Origin: a virus
Virus record (IMG/VR): IMGVR_UViG_3300044641_007763
Span: 1 to 38,202 of that record
Direction: 5' to 3' (one strand)
Length of the DNA stretch: 38,202 bases
In this document: piece after piece, positions 12,203 to 24,479 of the stretch
Layout of the letters: each line of letters begins with the position of its first letter
How positions within the stretch are numbered: the stretch's first letter is position 1
The notes under the pieces: model-generated
The model's database searches: none
What the model saw: only the letters and a program-made list of their open reading frames with translations
What the model was told of the DNA's origin: nothing
Made by a program: the position numbers and the translations under genes

Positions 12203-12895
12203 TTAGTCCTTTAGTTTAATTGTAGAAAATGTCTTTTTAAGATAGTTCCACACACGCGGTGTTGGATTTCTCATATACTCTCGAATCAGCAATTTGGCGT
12301 TCCTTTCCGCTTTGTCCTCAAAGCCCTCTGAATTTATCATGTAACCGTCGTGAATAAGTAGTAAATCAGTATCAACGAATGCTCTGGCCTCTCCATGAGT
12401 AGATGGCACTTCGTGACAAATTCCCTCCCAAGTTATGCCGCTTCCACGTCGCAATAGCCTACAAGCGTGTAGGGCATATCTTTCACGGGGGTGTGTATCA
12501 TTACTTGTATCGTACATCACTCCCGCAATACTTATCCAGCCAGCAACTGCTTCGCTACAGTCCATAGCCTCAATTTCGGCAATAACCTGTTCAGGCGGGT
12601 TGCCTAGATATTCGTCACTATCAATGTGTAATAGCCAACGCCCCGTGGCGTTTTGGTCTATGAAATTCCGAATGGCCGAAAAATCAAAGTCCTTGAAATA
12701 ATCAGTATAGTGGTACTCTAATGATACTAAGCTATCTGTAATTCCAAGCACTTGAAATTGGTTTTCGTAGCTTTCAACCTGTTTAACGCAACAAGATACT
12801 ATTTGAACCCCTTTTGGCAAACTGGCAACCCACTTGGATAGGTCAGCATTCGGGGGGTGTAGCACGCAGCAAGATAGTAGTTTATTTTCGCTCAT
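12203..12895 (-). CDS. Glycosyltransferase, GT-A/family 2-like, inside the tail module
   Basis: The product has 230 residues. A DSDEYL motif (residues 92-97) after strand GRWLLHI is the metal- and nucleotide-sugar-binding DxD of GT-A enzymes. WEGICHE (156-162), IHDGY (181-185) and a RNAKLL helix (198-203) follow the pattern of short family-2 glycosyltransferases. The N-terminal half of a usual nucleotide-binding domain is somewhat reduced. It lies between the tail terminator-like and tube genes, 2 bases from the latter. It could glycosylate virion proteins, host surface glycan, or hydroxymethylated DNA bases made by the modification cassette 9 kb upstream. The target is not determined by sequence. 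Confidence 0.8.
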   Translation of the reverse strand: MSENKLLSCCVLHPPNADLSKWVASLPKGVQIVSCCVKQVESYENQFQVLGITDSLVSLEYHYTDYFKDFDFSAIRNFIDQNATGRWLLHIDSDEYLGNPPEQVIAEIEAMDCSEAVAGWISIAGVMYDTSNDTHPRERYALHACRLLRRGSGITWEGICHEVPSTHGEARAFVDTDLLLIHDGYMINSEGFEDKAERNAKLLIREYMRNPTPRVWNYLKKTFSTIKLKD

Positions 12896-19653: not shown

Positions 19654-20805
19654 TTATACATGTATTGATGGCGTTTTTCTGATAGCTGAAAATGCCATTG
19701 ACAGAGCGTCCACCATATCGTCATGTTTGTCTTGTTTAGTGCCTGTAAATGATAGCAACTCGTCTGTAAACTCTGGCAATAGATGGGGCACGTGAAAAAC
19801 AAGCCCCTGTTCGTATCTTGCCTCTATTGGCTGAAATCGTATCATTTTATCTTTCGTTGATGGTACTCCCACAACGTTCATTCGGGTGTTTCGCCTTAAC
19901 TCTTGTACTAGCCAAGCTTGAGCCTGATTAGATTCAATAGCTACCACCTTTGGCTTCCATTTCGCCTCGGCTCGCACAACGCGCTCACCTATTTCAACGA
20001 AACTCCAACGGCCACGAATTACTTCAACCACGACAATTTCCTTCAAATCTGTCACACCTATTACACAAATAGCGGTGTAATCAGCTGAGTCCTTTTCTGA
20101 TATTGCCAAGTCAACCCCGATGAAATAGGAATTACACACCTTGGAATTATCAATTCTCAACCAATCACGCTTCACTTTCGCTGCATCTCTGTCAACATAT
20201 TCTGCCAAGTACTCTTGAGCGAATACAATCGATGGTAGTTGCTCGCGTTGTCGGTCAATTTCCGTAGGGTCAATGTAAGGGTTGCTATATGTGGAGTAGT
20301 GAAAGCTTTTCCAATCCGAATATATGTTTTCATTGGAATCAATATCTGAAAAGTGGTTTTTACCATTGGGGGTGCTTAAAAAGTACGCATCCCCTTTGAA
20401 GTCCGCAAGCATAGGGCTTAAAACAAAGTTCCAATCATCCTCAGCATTATCACAAAAAGCCCATTCGTCGCACAGCATTCGGTGGTAGGCATTTCCACGC
20501 AACCCATCGGCTCTCCAGATACCTGTCATAGTTAACACACTATCGTTGAGAGTTATTTCACCCCACTTCACCTTAGCTCCAAGCGGGGCAAACAATCTTA
20601 CAGCATCCTTGAACCTGCCTTTCAATTCTGTGTAGCTCGGTGTGGTGTAAATGACGCGCGTGTTTGGAGTTTGCATCATTTCTAGAGCAAGCGAAAAGGC
20701 TAGCAATGATTTTCCCCATCGCCTGCCGCACCTGACTACATTGTGCCGCCGTCTGTTTTTAAACACATCGGCTTGGCTCTTATGTAAGGTTATGTCTACT
20801 CGCAC
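19654..20805 (-). CDS. terL: Terminase large subunit
   Basis: The product has 383 residues. The ATPase has Walker A CGRRWGKS (26-33), Walker B MLCDE (110-114) and a coupling motif STPNG (144-148). The nuclease domain has Asp232 in FIGVDLAISEKDSADY and a final acidic group in KHDDMVDAL (360-368). It pumps DNA into the prohead and cuts it. The start is a GTG at 20805 with AGGAAG six bases upstream. It is 12 bases from the portal gene and follows the small subunit. Confidence 0.95.
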   Translation of the reverse strand: MRVDITLHKSQADVFKNRRRHNVVRCGRRWGKSLLAFSLALEMMQTPNTRVIYTTPSYTELKGRFKDAVRLFAPLGAKVKWGEITLNDSVLTMTGIWRADGLRGNAYHRMLCDEWAFCDNAEDDWNFVLSPMLADFKGDAYFLSTPNGKNHFSDIDSNENIYSDWKSFHYSTYSNPYIDPTEIDRQREQLPSIVFAQEYLAEYVDRDAAKVKRDWLRIDNSKVCNSYFIGVDLAISEKDSADYTAICVIGVTDLKEIVVVEVIRGRWSFVEIGERVVRAEAKWKPKVVAIESNQAQAWLVQELRRNTRMNVVGVPSTKDKMIRFQPIEARYEQGLVFHVPHLLPEFTDELLSFTGTKQDKHDDMVDALSMAFSAIRKTPSIHV

Positions 20806-20836: not shown

Positions 20837-21196
20837 CTATTTACCTTCATAGGTGTTCCATTTAATCACAAATGGCTCACCTGTTGTCTTGGTTTCTCTT
20901 TGTACGTTTGCTAGTCTTGAGAATTCCTCTTCTGTTCCTATCAGCTTCATAAGGGAAATTTGCAACGTAGCGTTGTCAGATTCAAACCATTTTTTCCTCA
21001 TGTTTTGCTTCATCTTGACTCTATTGGTCTCCAAGCCGCTTTTTAGGTCGTCCAATTCGTTGCTTCCAACAGGGAATTCCCTATAAAATGTAGTCTTGGA
21101 TATACCAAGGAACGCGACAATATCCTCAACGAAAAGTAGGTTTTTTGTGCGTACCAACTCATCGGCTTTTTCAAATAGGTCAGCCCGTTTTTTCAT
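20837..21196 (-). CDS. terS: Terminase small subunit-like protein
   Basis: The product has 119 residues. A helix-turn-helix at residues 20-45 (FVEDIVAFLGISKTTFYREF) is followed by long helices (ETNRVKMKQNMRKKWFE) and a C-terminal tail containing QRETKTTGEPF, the arrangement of small terminase subunits that recognise the packaging site. It lies directly before terL. Its start overlaps the end of the oxygenase gene by 17 bases, so packaging and DNA modification genes share one message. There is no clear ribosome-binding site, which fits coupling. Confidence 0.8.
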   Translation of the reverse strand: MKKRADLFEKADELVRTKNLLFVEDIVAFLGISKTTFYREFPVGSNELDDLKSGLETNRVKMKQNMRKKWFESDNATLQISLMKLIGTEEEFSRLANVQRETKTTGEPFVIKWNTYEGK

Positions 21197-21971
21197 GTTT
21201 GTTTACAAACGCCCTTAATGGATAAAACACCAAACTATTGCGATAACCGCCCGCTTTTGTTGGTATTATTGGTGTAACGCCGTGAACGTTTCTCCACGCT
21301 GGATAAACCAAGATACTGCCGTCAGCTGAGTCAACCGTAGCATTGTAGTCTGGTATAGTTGTGTTACCTCCCGTGCTATTATCACGGCGGGTAATGATAA
21401 CATTGGCACAGCCCTCAATGTTTCCACTATCCCGATGATAGCCAGAAGCAATGTTGAAGTTACTGATGCTCGATGTGAATATGTTGCCAAATCGCCACTT
21501 TTTATCAACGTGTCTATCAAAAATTTCCTTTTGCTTAGCGTATACATCAGGCGCCACATCTTTCATAACGTTTTCAGCCTCTAGTGCCAATAGCCACATA
21601 GCTTTAATAAACGTTTTGGCAGATGGCTTGTTATGTACAGCACTGATAGAGTTGTACGGCCTCCGCATGTGTGGCCTAGCTTGAATGCTGCCGATTATTG
21701 TGCTAAATTGTTTGACGTTGTTTCCCTCATGATAGCCTGTTGATCTATTCATTACTGTCTTGGGTACTCTGTTGCTAAGAAACTCTCTGTTTGCTATTTC
21801 TGACAGCTCTAAAGCCTTTTTTGAGTACTTGCCCACATTCTTCAAGTAAAAGCCTACCGTGGCTCCGTTGCTTACAAAGAGTGTGTCTTCTACAATGTTT
21901 GGTACAATACTTGGGCAATCATCGCCAATCTTAACAGAATGTTCTGTTTTTTCTAGTTCAATTATTTTCAT
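21180..21971 (-). CDS. 2-oxoglutarate/Fe(II) oxygenase of the TET/JBP type, predicted DNA thymine (or 5-methylcytosine) hydroxylase
   Basis: The product has 263 residues. A double-stranded beta-helix core occupies the C-terminal third: the metal ligands appear as His179 and Asp181 (GYHRDSGN) and His230 (NVHGVTPI), and Arg244 (GGYRNSLVFY) would bind 2-oxoglutarate. A GG-x(3)-IPDYN strand lies between, as in TET/JBP enzymes. Such enzymes oxidise the methyl group of thymine or 5-methylcytosine in DNA. The gene stands last in a run of base-modification genes and first before terS. No cytosine methyltransferase is encoded, so thymine is the likelier substrate. A phytanoyl-type hydroxylase acting on another substrate is the alternative. 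Confidence 0.78.
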   Translation of the reverse strand: MKIIELEKTEHSVKIGDDCPSIVPNIVEDTLFVSNGATVGFYLKNVGKYSKKALELSEIANREFLSNRVPKTVMNRSTGYHEGNNVKQFSTIIGSIQARPHMRRPYNSISAVHNKPSAKTFIKAMWLLALEAENVMKDVAPDVYAKQKEIFDRHVDKKWRFGNIFTSSISNFNIASGYHRDSGNIEGCANVIITRRDNSTGGNTTIPDYNATVDSADGSILVYPAWRNVHGVTPIIPTKAGGYRNSLVFYPLRAFVNKHEKTG

Positions 21972-21980
21972 TCCGCATTC

Positions 21981-22478
21981 CTAAGTGCTATATTTTCCAA
22001 CCAGTTGCCAAAATTCTGACTTTACCACTTCCAGCTCTCTATTGTTGTCTAGAACATATCTAGTGGCTATTCCTTTGAGTTTCTTCAACAAGCTAGCATG
22101 AGTTTTGAGTTTTGCTGTGTACGTATTGGGGTTGATGAGCTTACCGCGTTTTGCTATTCGTTTCGCATTGTTTTCATAGCTAGTATTCAAATATACAGCT
22201 ACTGGCTTGTGCGATTGTCGTATTTTTATGAAATCATTGTATTGGCTGTAGTAAATGCCCGCAATAATAATGTTTTTATCAGGGTGTTGCTTAATAAAAT
22301 CAAACACCTTAGACTTATCAAAACCTGACAGACTATCAGCACCTATTGTAGATTTTCCCAATACCCAGTTGTTATTTCCAACATGTAACAAGATATTTGT
22401 TTTATCCAATACCGGTAAATCTAGAATTGAGCTCTTGCCTACGCCAAAGTTTCCGAGCAAAAATACAGCGTAACTCAT
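21981..22478 (-). CDS. P-loop kinase, predicted 5-hydroxymethyl-pyrimidine DNA kinase
   Basis: The product has 165 residues. Walker A GNFGVGKSS is at 9-17, a conserved IGADSLSG loop at 45-52, a Walker B-like strand NIIIAGIYYSQYND at 69-82 and a lid arginine cluster RIAKRGK at 107-113. Small kinases with this layout next to TET/JBP or hmdU genes phosphorylate the hydroxymethyl group of the base in DNA, making it a leaving group. It overlaps the preceding transferase gene by 4 bases (ATGA) and has GGAG upstream. A deoxynucleotide kinase is the alternative, but the company favours the DNA-level role. Confidence 0.75.
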   Translation of the reverse strand: MSYAVFLLGNFGVGKSSILDLPVLDKTNILLHVGNNNWVLGKSTIGADSLSGFDKSKVFDFIKQHPDKNIIIAGIYYSQYNDFIKIRQSHKPVAVYLNTSYENNAKRIAKRGKLINPNTYTAKLKTHASLLKKLKGIATRYVLDNNRELEVVKSEFWQLVGKYST

Positions 22479-23305
22479 GTAAGCTCCAACAAGTATTTAG
22501 CGTCAAAGGTCTCTTTTCTAAATTCCCACAGCACATCCCAACACACGCCGTCGGTTATGCGTTTTTCCATAGTCTGAATCTCTTTTCTCATTCGATCAAT
22601 GTAATAGCCAACATAGCGTTGTCCTTTTCGATATTTCTTGTACGCGCACAACGTAGTCTCAATTTGGAATATGTTGCCTACATTTTCTCTGCGTATCTCA
22701 GCCATTTTACCTTGGAGAGCCTTGTATTGCTGTGATGTTAGCTTTTTATCTACCAATTTTTCCTTACCTATGGCGTAAAGCAATCCGTTTGTGCAAGATT
22801 CAGCATTTTCGAGGTCTAAATGCGGCGGCTGCACATTTACGTCAGTAATTTGGTTCAGGGTGTCTAGGTAGTTGAATAGTGTAAACCTACCGAAATACTT
22901 GATACGCTCAATACTTTTGTACACTTCTTGCCAAGTCTTGTTGTGAAAATAGGCTCGTTGATTGTTTTTTACAAGAGATTTATAGCTAATAAATGATTCT
23001 ACAAACTGGTCGTTGCTACGAATGCGCGCCCTGTCTGTTTGGAATATCAAGTCCTTTTTGTATTTTTTCCACCAGCGTTCCAATCTATCCACGTCAACGG
23101 TTTCAAAATCTGGGAATTCATTGTAAATAAAAAACACGGTGACGGCACAGTAACAGGTTCCGTACAAAAAACACAGCCAATACCTCTGTTCTATATTGAG
23201 TTCATATCTATTCGCTATGTACCGTAGGCATGTAATTGACGGGTCAATGTCTTTTGCCCTATACATAGCGTTGTGAAAATCAGTATAGCTTAGGACTTTA
23301 TTCAC
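22475..23305 (-). CDS. Amino acid:DNA transferase-like protein (aGPT-PPlase family)
   Basis: The product has 276 residues, all helical. LNIEQRYWLCFLYGTCYCA (36-54), IKYFGRFTLFNYLDTL (135-150) and ETTLCAYKKYRKGQRYVGYY with IDR (216-238) match my memory of the alpha-glutamyl/putrescinyl-thymine pyrophosphorylase group, DNA-glycosylase-related proteins that replace the (pyro)phosphate on activated 5-hydroxymethyluracil with an amino acid or amine. The start is GTG at 23305, immediately after the amidotransferase stop (TAA-GTG). The gene between amidotransferase and kinase is where such a transferase would be expected. A profile search is needed to settle the clade. Confidence 0.75.
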   Translation of the reverse strand: MNKVLSYTDFHNAMYRAKDIDPSITCLRYIANRYELNIEQRYWLCFLYGTCYCAVTVFFIYNEFPDFETVDVDRLERWWKKYKKDLIFQTDRARIRSNDQFVESFISYKSLVKNNQRAYFHNKTWQEVYKSIERIKYFGRFTLFNYLDTLNQITDVNVQPPHLDLENAESCTNGLLYAIGKEKLVDKKLTSQQYKALQGKMAEIRRENVGNIFQIETTLCAYKKYRKGQRYVGYYIDRMRKEIQTMEKRITDGVCWDVLWEFRKETFDAKYLLELT

Positions 23306-23899
23306 TTACCACCTGTATGTTACATCACTTTTAAGCGGCTCTGCGTTTTTCACTCCAGCCCTGCTAAAAATAGACTCAGTAGAACAGATAACTACTTTTT
23401 CAGAATCTGAATGAACCCAAAGTGGCCTTTTTGTGTTCTTACGTGCGCATAGCTTGTCGAAATGGAGCCAAGCTGAGGCGTAAGTCAAATTTGAACCTTT
23501 CAACCAGCTATCGTCATTTATTTTGCTAAATAGAATCCAGCCGTCATTTTCACTAGGCATCTTTATGTCGTACTCACTTTCCATTGCCTGCTTTGACTTC
23601 ATACTGATGGTGCCGTTGAACACTAGCGATGTATTTCCATCATGTAATGGCTGATTATTGTCCGCTTTGCTGTGATCGCCACTAGTTGAGTATCTAAAAT
23701 GCGCAATAAAAAGTTTAGGTGCTATTTCCTTGAGTTTGCCAATAAAGTCTTTGTAATTTAAGGTTTTATATGTGTTAATTACATTGTCCTGCCAATACGA
23801 AAAACCGTAGGCATGCAAACCTCTTATTCTAGACTCAAAGCACAATTTATCAACTAAGTTGCTGTCAAAATTGCCTTTATACCCAATAATAGCACACAT
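23306..23899 (-). CDS. Class II glutamine amidotransferase domain protein (Ntn hydrolase)
   Basis: The product has 197 residues from the ATG at 23899, which puts Cys at position 2 (MCAIIGYKG) as the N-terminal nucleophile required by the family; longer starts would hide it. IAHFRYST (65-72), NNQPLH (81-86), the oxyanion-hole NGTI (95-98) and ENDGWILF (117-124) match GlmS/PurF/AsnB glutaminase domains. It would release ammonia from glutamine. It has no synthetase domain of its own, so the ammonia acceptor must be another protein, most simply the transferase encoded next. It begins one base after the ParB-like stop and has an A-rich leader rather than a Shine-Dalgarno. Confidence 0.85.
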   Translation of the reverse strand: MCAIIGYKGNFDSNLVDKLCFESRIRGLHAYGFSYWQDNVINTYKTLNYKDFIGKLKEIAPKLFIAHFRYSTSGDHSKADNNQPLHDGNTSLVFNGTISMKSKQAMESEYDIKMPSENDGWILFSKINDDSWLKGSNLTYASAWLHFDKLCARKNTKRPLWVHSDSEKVVICSTESIFSRAGVKNAEPLKSDVTYRW

Positions 23900-23900
23900 A

Positions 23901-24479
23901 TTACATTTTTTCTTTGGTTTTACGCATTTCGTTGAGCATCCAGCCACCTAAATACATGCCTTGCTCACGGAAAAACTTGACTAATTCAAACGCTTCGTCA
24001 TAATCGCTCAAGTCAAACTCAATCATAATGGCTTTTTTGACGCCGTCTGACATAGCTTCCAGCTCTTTATCAACATTTTCGTCATCTAGCACAGAATAAT
24101 CAACATCTTCAACGACAAAGTTTGGAATATCCAAGCCCCAATCGTTTAAATCGCTCACTTCCCATTGGTTCGCCAATATATCCCAATCCCATTCACCGAA
24201 TGCTAGATTGTCCTTGATAATAAATTCGTTTTGCTTTTCTTCAGGCCAGTCAACAATATTTACAGTCAAATCTGTGATGCCCGCATCTTTTGCGGCTAGC
24301 AATCTCATATTCCCACCCAATACAACCAAGTCAGAATTGCAAACTATCTTGCGCACTTCCAACATTTCTGGAAAGGTACGCAAAGAATTGACTAGCTTTT
24401 GGTATTTATCATCCTTTATGTATCTAGGATTGCGCTCGTTTTGTTTTAGTTGGGTGATTTGAACCTTTTTTTCCTTCAT
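23901..24479 (-). CDS. ParB/sulfiredoxin-like nuclease-domain protein
   Basis: The product has 192 residues from the ATG at 24479, which has AGGAG seven bases upstream and overlaps the previous stop (ATGA). The ParB N-terminal-like domain occupies residues 5-100: QLKQNERNPRY, then VLGGNMRLLAAKDAG (53-67) with the GGNMR nucleotide-binding loop, and IIKDNLAFGEWDWD (87-100). It has no ParB helix-turn-helix; the remainder is acidic. Such proteins are common next to DNA-modification genes in phages, where they may use the ParB CTPase/nuclease fold to find or nick DNA. The biochemical role is not shown. Confidence 0.85.
   Translation of the reverse strand: MKEKKVQITQLKQNERNPRYIKDDKYQKLVNSLRTFPEMLEVRKIVCNSDLVVLGGNMRLLAAKDAGITDLTVNIVDWPEEKQNEFIIKDNLAFGEWDWDILANQWEVSDLNDWGLDIPNFVVEDVDYSVLDDENVDKELEAMSDGVKKAIMIEFDLSDYDEAFELVKFFREQGMYLGGWMLNEMRKTKEKM

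Follow-up and report, generated by a model that had tools for sequence, protein, structure and literature searches.

A glutamine amidotransferase paired with an amino acid:DNA transferase in a putative TET-type thymidine hypermodification cassette of uncultivated viruses

Results

Organization of the cassette

We analyzed the IMG/VR virus record IMGVR_UViG_3300044641_007763 over its whole length of 38,202 bases (hereafter, the window), which encodes capsid, portal, terminase, prohead protease and primase-helicase proteins, and focused on a five-gene cassette that is predicted to hypermodify thymidine in DNA. The cassette occupies positions 24479-21180 of the minus strand, with the transcription order ParB-like protein, class II glutamine amidotransferase (GAT), amino acid:DNA transferase (AADT), P-loop kinase and TET/JBP oxygenase (Table 1). 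Neighbouring genes overlap by at most 4 bp or leave a gap of 0-9 bp; the terminase genes lie directly downstream of the oxygenase, so that the cassette adjoins the packaging genes. An earlier note on this DNA, made from the letters alone, had described five adjacent minus-strand genes and quoted a motif for each; all of the open reading frames (ORFs), coordinates and motifs proved correct. No near-DNA relatives of the window were found among GenBank phages. As these five genes occur together in numerous viral contigs and their catalytic residues are invariant, the cassette is not a chance arrangement.

Table 1. Cassette genes and flanking terminase genes of the window.
Feature	Coordinates	Strand	Motifs and matches
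ParB-like protein (ParB/sulfiredoxin fold), 192 aa, first cassette gene	23901..24479	-	motif GGNMR; PHROG 498/620/940; Pfam ParB_N below cut-off
Stand-alone class II GAT (Ntn hydrolase), 197 aa	23306..23899	-	starts MCAIIGYKG; GATase_6, PurF and GlmS matches
AADT (AADT/ADDT, aGPT-PPlase-like), 276 aa, HhH DNA-glycosylase-like fold	22475..23305	-	PF18724; motifs IETTLCAYK, GYYIDR
P-loop kinase, 165 aa, putative 5-hmU DNA kinase	21981..22478	-	GNFGVGKSS; AAA_18, dNK
TET/JBP Fe(II)/2-oxoglutarate oxygenase, 263 aa	21180..21971	-	PF12851; HRD...NVHG...R
Small helix-turn-helix protein, probable small terminase subunit (flank, outside cassette)	20837..21196	-	between oxygenase and large terminase; weak TetR_N/DUF1441 matches
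Large terminase subunit (flank)	19654..20805	-	Terminase_6C E 2e-15

Identity of the encoded proteins

The earlier note had also named the five proteins and pointed to profile searches as the check. The identities were right, with the oxygenase and the AADT above their Pfam cut-offs and the other three supported by further evidence; in the searches themselves TET_JBP and ADDT were matched above cut-off, the GAT stayed slightly below its cut-off, and the kinase had no match to PF18751 (Ploopntkinase3, the 5-hydroxymethyluracil (5-hmU) DNA kinase type). The oxygenase scored 39.4 bits against TET/JBP (PF12851, cut-off 34.9), and its metal and 2-oxoglutarate ligands His179, Asp181, His230 and Arg244 (HxD...H...R) are invariant in 78/78 relatives. 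PHROG 6059 labels this protein 'queuine tRNA-ribosyltransferase', which we rejected because Pfam and the catalytic residues indicate TET/JBP. RefSeq TET/JBP oxygenases (e.g. NC_020847 and NC_022061) carry the same label, and also 'DpdA-like', in what looks like a propagated error.

The AADT scored 67.8 bits against Pfam ADDT (PF18724, cut-off 26.2). No solved relative was significant by sequence search alone, and a fold search was needed. The predicted model (pLDDT 95.2) best matched PUGT (8z2m/8z2n) with a Z of 19.9 and an rmsd of 3.2 Å over 251 residues, at an identity of only 15%; the next unrelated row had a Z of 9.2, and HhH DNA glycosylases fell below 9. PUGT is the solved 5-phosphomethyl-dU (5-PmdU) glycinyltransferase of Pseudomonas phage PaMx11, and this match places the AADT in a family for which a reaction with phosphorylated 5-hmU in DNA has been characterised.

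The GAT reached 24.5 bits in Pfam, slightly below the cut-off of 27 (GATase_6, E 3e-5), and an orthologue from a relative reached 28.0 bits, above it; PurF was matched at E 1e-4. Its nucleophile, Cys2, directly follows the start methionine, and Cys2, Arg69, Asn95, Gly96 and Asp119 are invariant in 74/74 relatives. The predicted model (pLDDT 95.9) matches the folds of the GlmS glutaminase domain (E 1e-10), PurF and the hydrolase EgtC. Relatives of the GAT were found neither in genome contigs nor in plasmids.

The kinase matched AAA_18 (E 1e-5, 26.5 bits, cut-off 29.4) and dNK (E 4e-4), and its P-loop (GNFGVGKSS) is intact and conserved in 11/11 relatives. Profile comparison linked it at 96% probability to the kinases of sister cassettes that we term KINB, and weakly (59%) to actinophage kinases. 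Mycobacterium phage Fortunato gp03 (L226:2863-3462), annotated 'terminase small subunit', matches a 5-hmU-kinase-type profile (E 4e-68); LilMcDreamy gp05 resembles it, and YuA gp13 is labelled both terminase small subunit and putative kinase. The ParB-like protein matched PHROG 498/620/940 (E 4e-23 to 6e-19) and scored 19.4 bits against Pfam ParB_N, below the cut-off of 26.3. Its gene sits ahead of the cassette in nearly all relatives, and the protein is a probable DNA-loading or targeting factor.

Association of the GAT with one AADT clade

At least 583 relatives of the oxygenase were present in viral contigs, and the best 80 of these were surveyed for their gene context. Their common chassis is ParB-[cargo]-TET-small terminase-large terminase, in which the cargo is absent, an FkbM-type methyltransferase, GAT with AADT and kinase, a second AADT type (AADT2) with kinase, or a TET-associated glycosyltransferase (TAGT). 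The FkbM-type methyltransferase lies between ParB and TET at L002:16431-17132 and about 30 other loci, and a possible role is O-methylation of the hydroxymethyl bases made by TET. Prochlorococcus phages MED4-184 and MED4-117, which encode the closest isolate oxygenase (46% identity) and resemble the window in genome size and in the ParB-[cargo]-TET-terminase layout, differ from it in that this methyltransferase is their single cargo in place of GAT-AADT-kinase. A TAGT (PF20691, weak) fills the slot at L081:5290-6120.

Relatives of the window-clade AADT numbered at least 579, and alignment searches with AADT and GAT gave 125 distinct loci. A GAT lay within 1.5 kb of the AADT at 124/125 of these loci, a pairing that is partly selected and a sample of AADTs that is biased, as the sequences used to start the AADT searches were themselves linked to a GAT. 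Adjacent GAT and AADT genes overlap by a median of 13 bp. TET was found within the examined stretch at 112/125 loci and a GNAT acetyltransferase at 60/125, and the FAD protein, the flavoprotein of the glycine route, at 0/125. The kinases comprised 13 of the window type, 80 KINB, 24 of a type termed KINC and 5 PF18751-like, with none found at 3 loci, and two gene orders occurred, with TET either last or directly behind ParB. The GAT-AADT pairing is kept across all four kinase types and the changes in gene order, and also at loci without detected TET.

One reading of these data is that the genes do not form one pathway, with TET alone modifying DNA and the others serving nucleotide or amino acid metabolism. 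The frequency with which the ParB-TET chassis bears other cargo or none is in line with this, but the GAT, AADT and kinase genes move jointly, as overlapping genes, through several rearrangements, and we consider separate functions very improbable.

Non-window AADT clades (Wooper, Tonitrus, LilMcDreamy, L022 and L057) had a GAT in 0/5 cases and an FAD/Rossmann-like protein in 3/5. Few FAD cases underlie this contrast between the GAT and FAD routes, because a scan of viral contigs for the FAD protein returned nothing and one for AADT2 returned its two seeds only. Among 50,697 phage records the GAT-AADT pair was not found: GAT relatives occurred in other contexts, and no AADT relative was seen together with this GAT. 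Two isolate carriers of a GAT were rejected as candidates: that of Arthrobacter phage Shrooms adjoins an amidoligase, and neither AADT nor TET was found in the two stretches examined, and that of Poriferisphaera phage ZRK32 has no AADT, TET or kinase match nearby. Pseudomonas phage PaP3 and Pseudoalteromonas phage RIO-1 share the phage class II GAT (24-28% identity); unlike in the window, it forms the N-terminal part of a longer protein whose gene neighbours are amidoligases and ATP-grasp enzymes, and neither AADT nor TET is present. Amidoligase-like proteins also stand beside GAT-AADT at L236:5837-6757 (by eye) and L266:3456-4346 (PF12224), which links these loci to the PaP3 and RIO-1 clusters of GAT and amidoligase.

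The GAT-AADT module is perhaps portable, although we advance this tentatively, and in a few viruses without detected TET it adjoins a radical-SAM protein, sometimes fused to TAGT. Such modules, with their kinase, adjoin a radical-SAM protein (CxxxCxxC) at the IMG/VR loci L207, L236, L287 and L292, with neither TET nor thymidylate synthase family PF00303 in the record; at L287 and L292 this protein is fused to a TAGT domain. Two homing-endonuclease-like ORFs, recognized by eye, are inserted into the GAT-AADT cassette of L207 (4776-5510 and 6591-7211). Some KINC cassettes (L137:4757-5395 and similar) carry a second, unrelated-looking GNAT-like protein of 212 aa between kinase and GAT.

Which base is modified

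The dUMP hydroxymethylase that supplies 5-hmdUTP in M6- and ViI-type systems, or any member of its family PF00303, was found neither in the window nor in 52 related records (53 in total, possibly incomplete). A C5-cytosine methyltransferase was likewise absent from the window and from 39/43 GAT-AADT records, which may also be incomplete. These two absences, together with the action of AADT relatives on 5-hmU, favor thymine that is oxidised inside DNA. Cytosine would be the target if TET oxidised 5-methylcytosine made by the host or by a missing viral C5-methyltransferase, and the kinase and AADT then decorated 5-hydroxymethylcytosine. Other phage TETs are said to act on 5-methylcytosine, in work by Burke et al. 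in 2021, and a C5-methyltransferase is present in 4/43 GAT-AADT records; however, besides the absence from the window and the other 39, relatives of both AADT and kinase act on 5-hmU and JBP family members act on thymine. We therefore regard a cytosine target as improbable.

Proposed pathway

Judging from the genes present, their conservation and joint occurrence, and the predicted folds, the cassette very probably carries out TET-type thymidine hypermodification. The ParB-like protein would load on or select the DNA, and the TET/JBP enzyme would oxidise the thymine methyl group to 5-hydroxymethyl-U within it, as its family and the lack of a detected dUMP hydroxymethylase suggest. The P-loop kinase would then activate the hydroxymethyl group by phosphorylation, a role suggested by its gene position and by M6/ViI-type systems, and the AADT-fold transferase would displace the (pyro)phosphate. 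The novel step would be that the GAT hydrolyses glutamine and that ammonia, not a free amino acid, attacks, so that 5-aminomethyl-dU forms in a single step; where sister cassettes carry a GNAT, this enzyme would go on to acetylate the amine. Such direct amination would dispense with the known route, in which glycine is transferred and a flavin-dependent lyase then acts. By that route, Wen et al. in 2024 are said to have described 5-aminomethyl-dU being made via N-alpha-GlyT and a flavoenzyme. The modification may serve as protection against host nucleases. A list of natural phage bases includes 5-aminomethyluracil (PMC11550810).

Our best full explanation, that thymine is hypermodified in the virus's own replicated DNA with GAT-supplied ammonia as the AADT nucleophile, seems to us about evenly poised between right and wrong. 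Glutamine-derived ammonia as the nucleophile for the whole window AADT clade is a credible proposal that stops just short of an even chance. A little more tentatively still, GAT and AADT together may be a glutamine-dependent DNA-base aminase that channels ammonia onto activated 5-hmU to form 5-aminomethyl-dU, which the GNAT of sister cassettes would cap as acetylaminomethyl-dU. Ammonia supply by the GAT would explain why this protein is near-constant amid varying tailoring genes, why GAT and FAD protein were not observed to co-occur, and why an acetyltransferase is a frequent addition, in line with an amine product.

In the main rival, the same pathway would operate with the AADT adding a free amino acid (e.g. 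serine, glycine, glutamate or glutamine) to activated 5-hmU, and the GAT would later trim the adduct in an EgtC-like manner or feed glutamate. The characterised relative PUGT (8z2m) does use an amino acid, the GAT matches EgtC about equally to GlmS, and the closest isolate AADTs, those of ViI-like Ackermannviridae, have no GAT partner. However, one would expect a trimming enzyme to come and go as the GNAT does, yet the GAT is present almost throughout while the tailoring genes downstream differ, and the window cassette encodes neither a pyridoxal phosphate (PLP) enzyme nor an FAD lyase. We consider this rival rather unlikely.

Several observations, in addition to the seeding of the searches and the Ackermannviridae AADTs, weigh against ammonia transfer by GAT and AADT. 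The sole window-clade locus without a GAT belongs to an isolate, Mycobacterium phage Fortunato. The fold of the GAT is also common to EgtC, a gamma-glutamyl hydrolase, and a GAT domain usually forms one protein with its synthetase or is held tightly by it. The window kinase reaches no curated kinase family cut-off, and the absences described above rest on possibly incomplete contigs.

Comparison with known systems

Iyer et al. in 2013 are said to have predicted TET-generated hydroxymethyl pyrimidines as starting points of hypermodification. For Rhodococcus phage Tonitrus, a thymidine hypermodification system of five genes has been published that includes ParB, Tet/JBP, aGPT-PPlase2 and 5-hmU kinase (PMC11955845, 2025), and the GenBank annotation of Gordonia phage Wooper gives the same kind of cassette: ParB, Tet-like J-binding protein, aGPT-Pplase2, 5-hmU DNA kinase and FAD-like protein. 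These actinophage cassettes share with that of the window ParB, TET, AADT and kinase beside the terminase and the lack of a dUMP hydroxymethylase within the cassette, but they have no GAT, their AADT falls in a different clade of the tree, their kinase is of the PF18751 type, and an FAD/Rossmann-like protein takes the place of the GAT.

The kinase-then-transferase scheme has been summarised for M6, ViI and phi W-14 (PMC6449724). Pseudomonas phages M6, YuA and PaMx11 (5-NedU, N-alpha-GlyT, 5-NmdU) resemble the window in using a kinase and an AADT on 5-hmU in DNA and in the PUGT transferase fold; unlike it, they make 5-hmU as a nucleotide through a thymidylate synthase homologue (YuA gp17), use glycine as the nucleophile, and have no annotated TET or GAT. 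Salmonella phage ViI and Escherichia phage CBA120 (5-NeOmdU) encode the closest isolate AADTs (28% identity), which join the window clade in the tree on a long branch. In contrast to the window, they are large Ackermannviridae with no TET or GAT annotated beside the AADT. Outside the cassette, a weak glycosyltransferase-2-like ORF lies within the structural region of the window (12203-12895).

Discussion

TET-initiated thymidine hypermodification as such is already known, and the GAT-linked AADT clade is the new part. The earlier note had proposed oxidation in DNA, then kinase and transferase, possibly with amidotransferase ammonia, and this order is the best-supported reading; its remark that the usual dUMP hydroxymethylase is lacking was also borne out. 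Its suggestion that TET, kinase and AADT without that enzyme are undescribed does not stand in view of Tonitrus and Wooper. The amidotransferase was treated there as optional and is in fact a near-constant partner of this AADT clade. The strict pairing of GAT with this clade was not found in any record or accessible paper, although other papers may already have mentioned a GAT in cassettes of this kind.

The near-constant pairing suggests a new chemical route. If this is true, it would be, to our knowledge, the first known case in which glutamine-derived ammonia is placed directly on a base inside DNA, and it would join PurF/GlmS-type glutaminases with HhH-fold DNA transferases. The simple route to amine-bearing DNA that it implies would be useful for labelling and for understanding the evasion of restriction and CRISPR nucleases. 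Overall, the ParB-[cargo]-TET-terminase arrangement is a modular slot in which phages exchange base-decorating enzymes, and ammonia transfer, if correct, would account for an entire AADT clade that is spread over several hundred or more contigs of uncultivated viruses.

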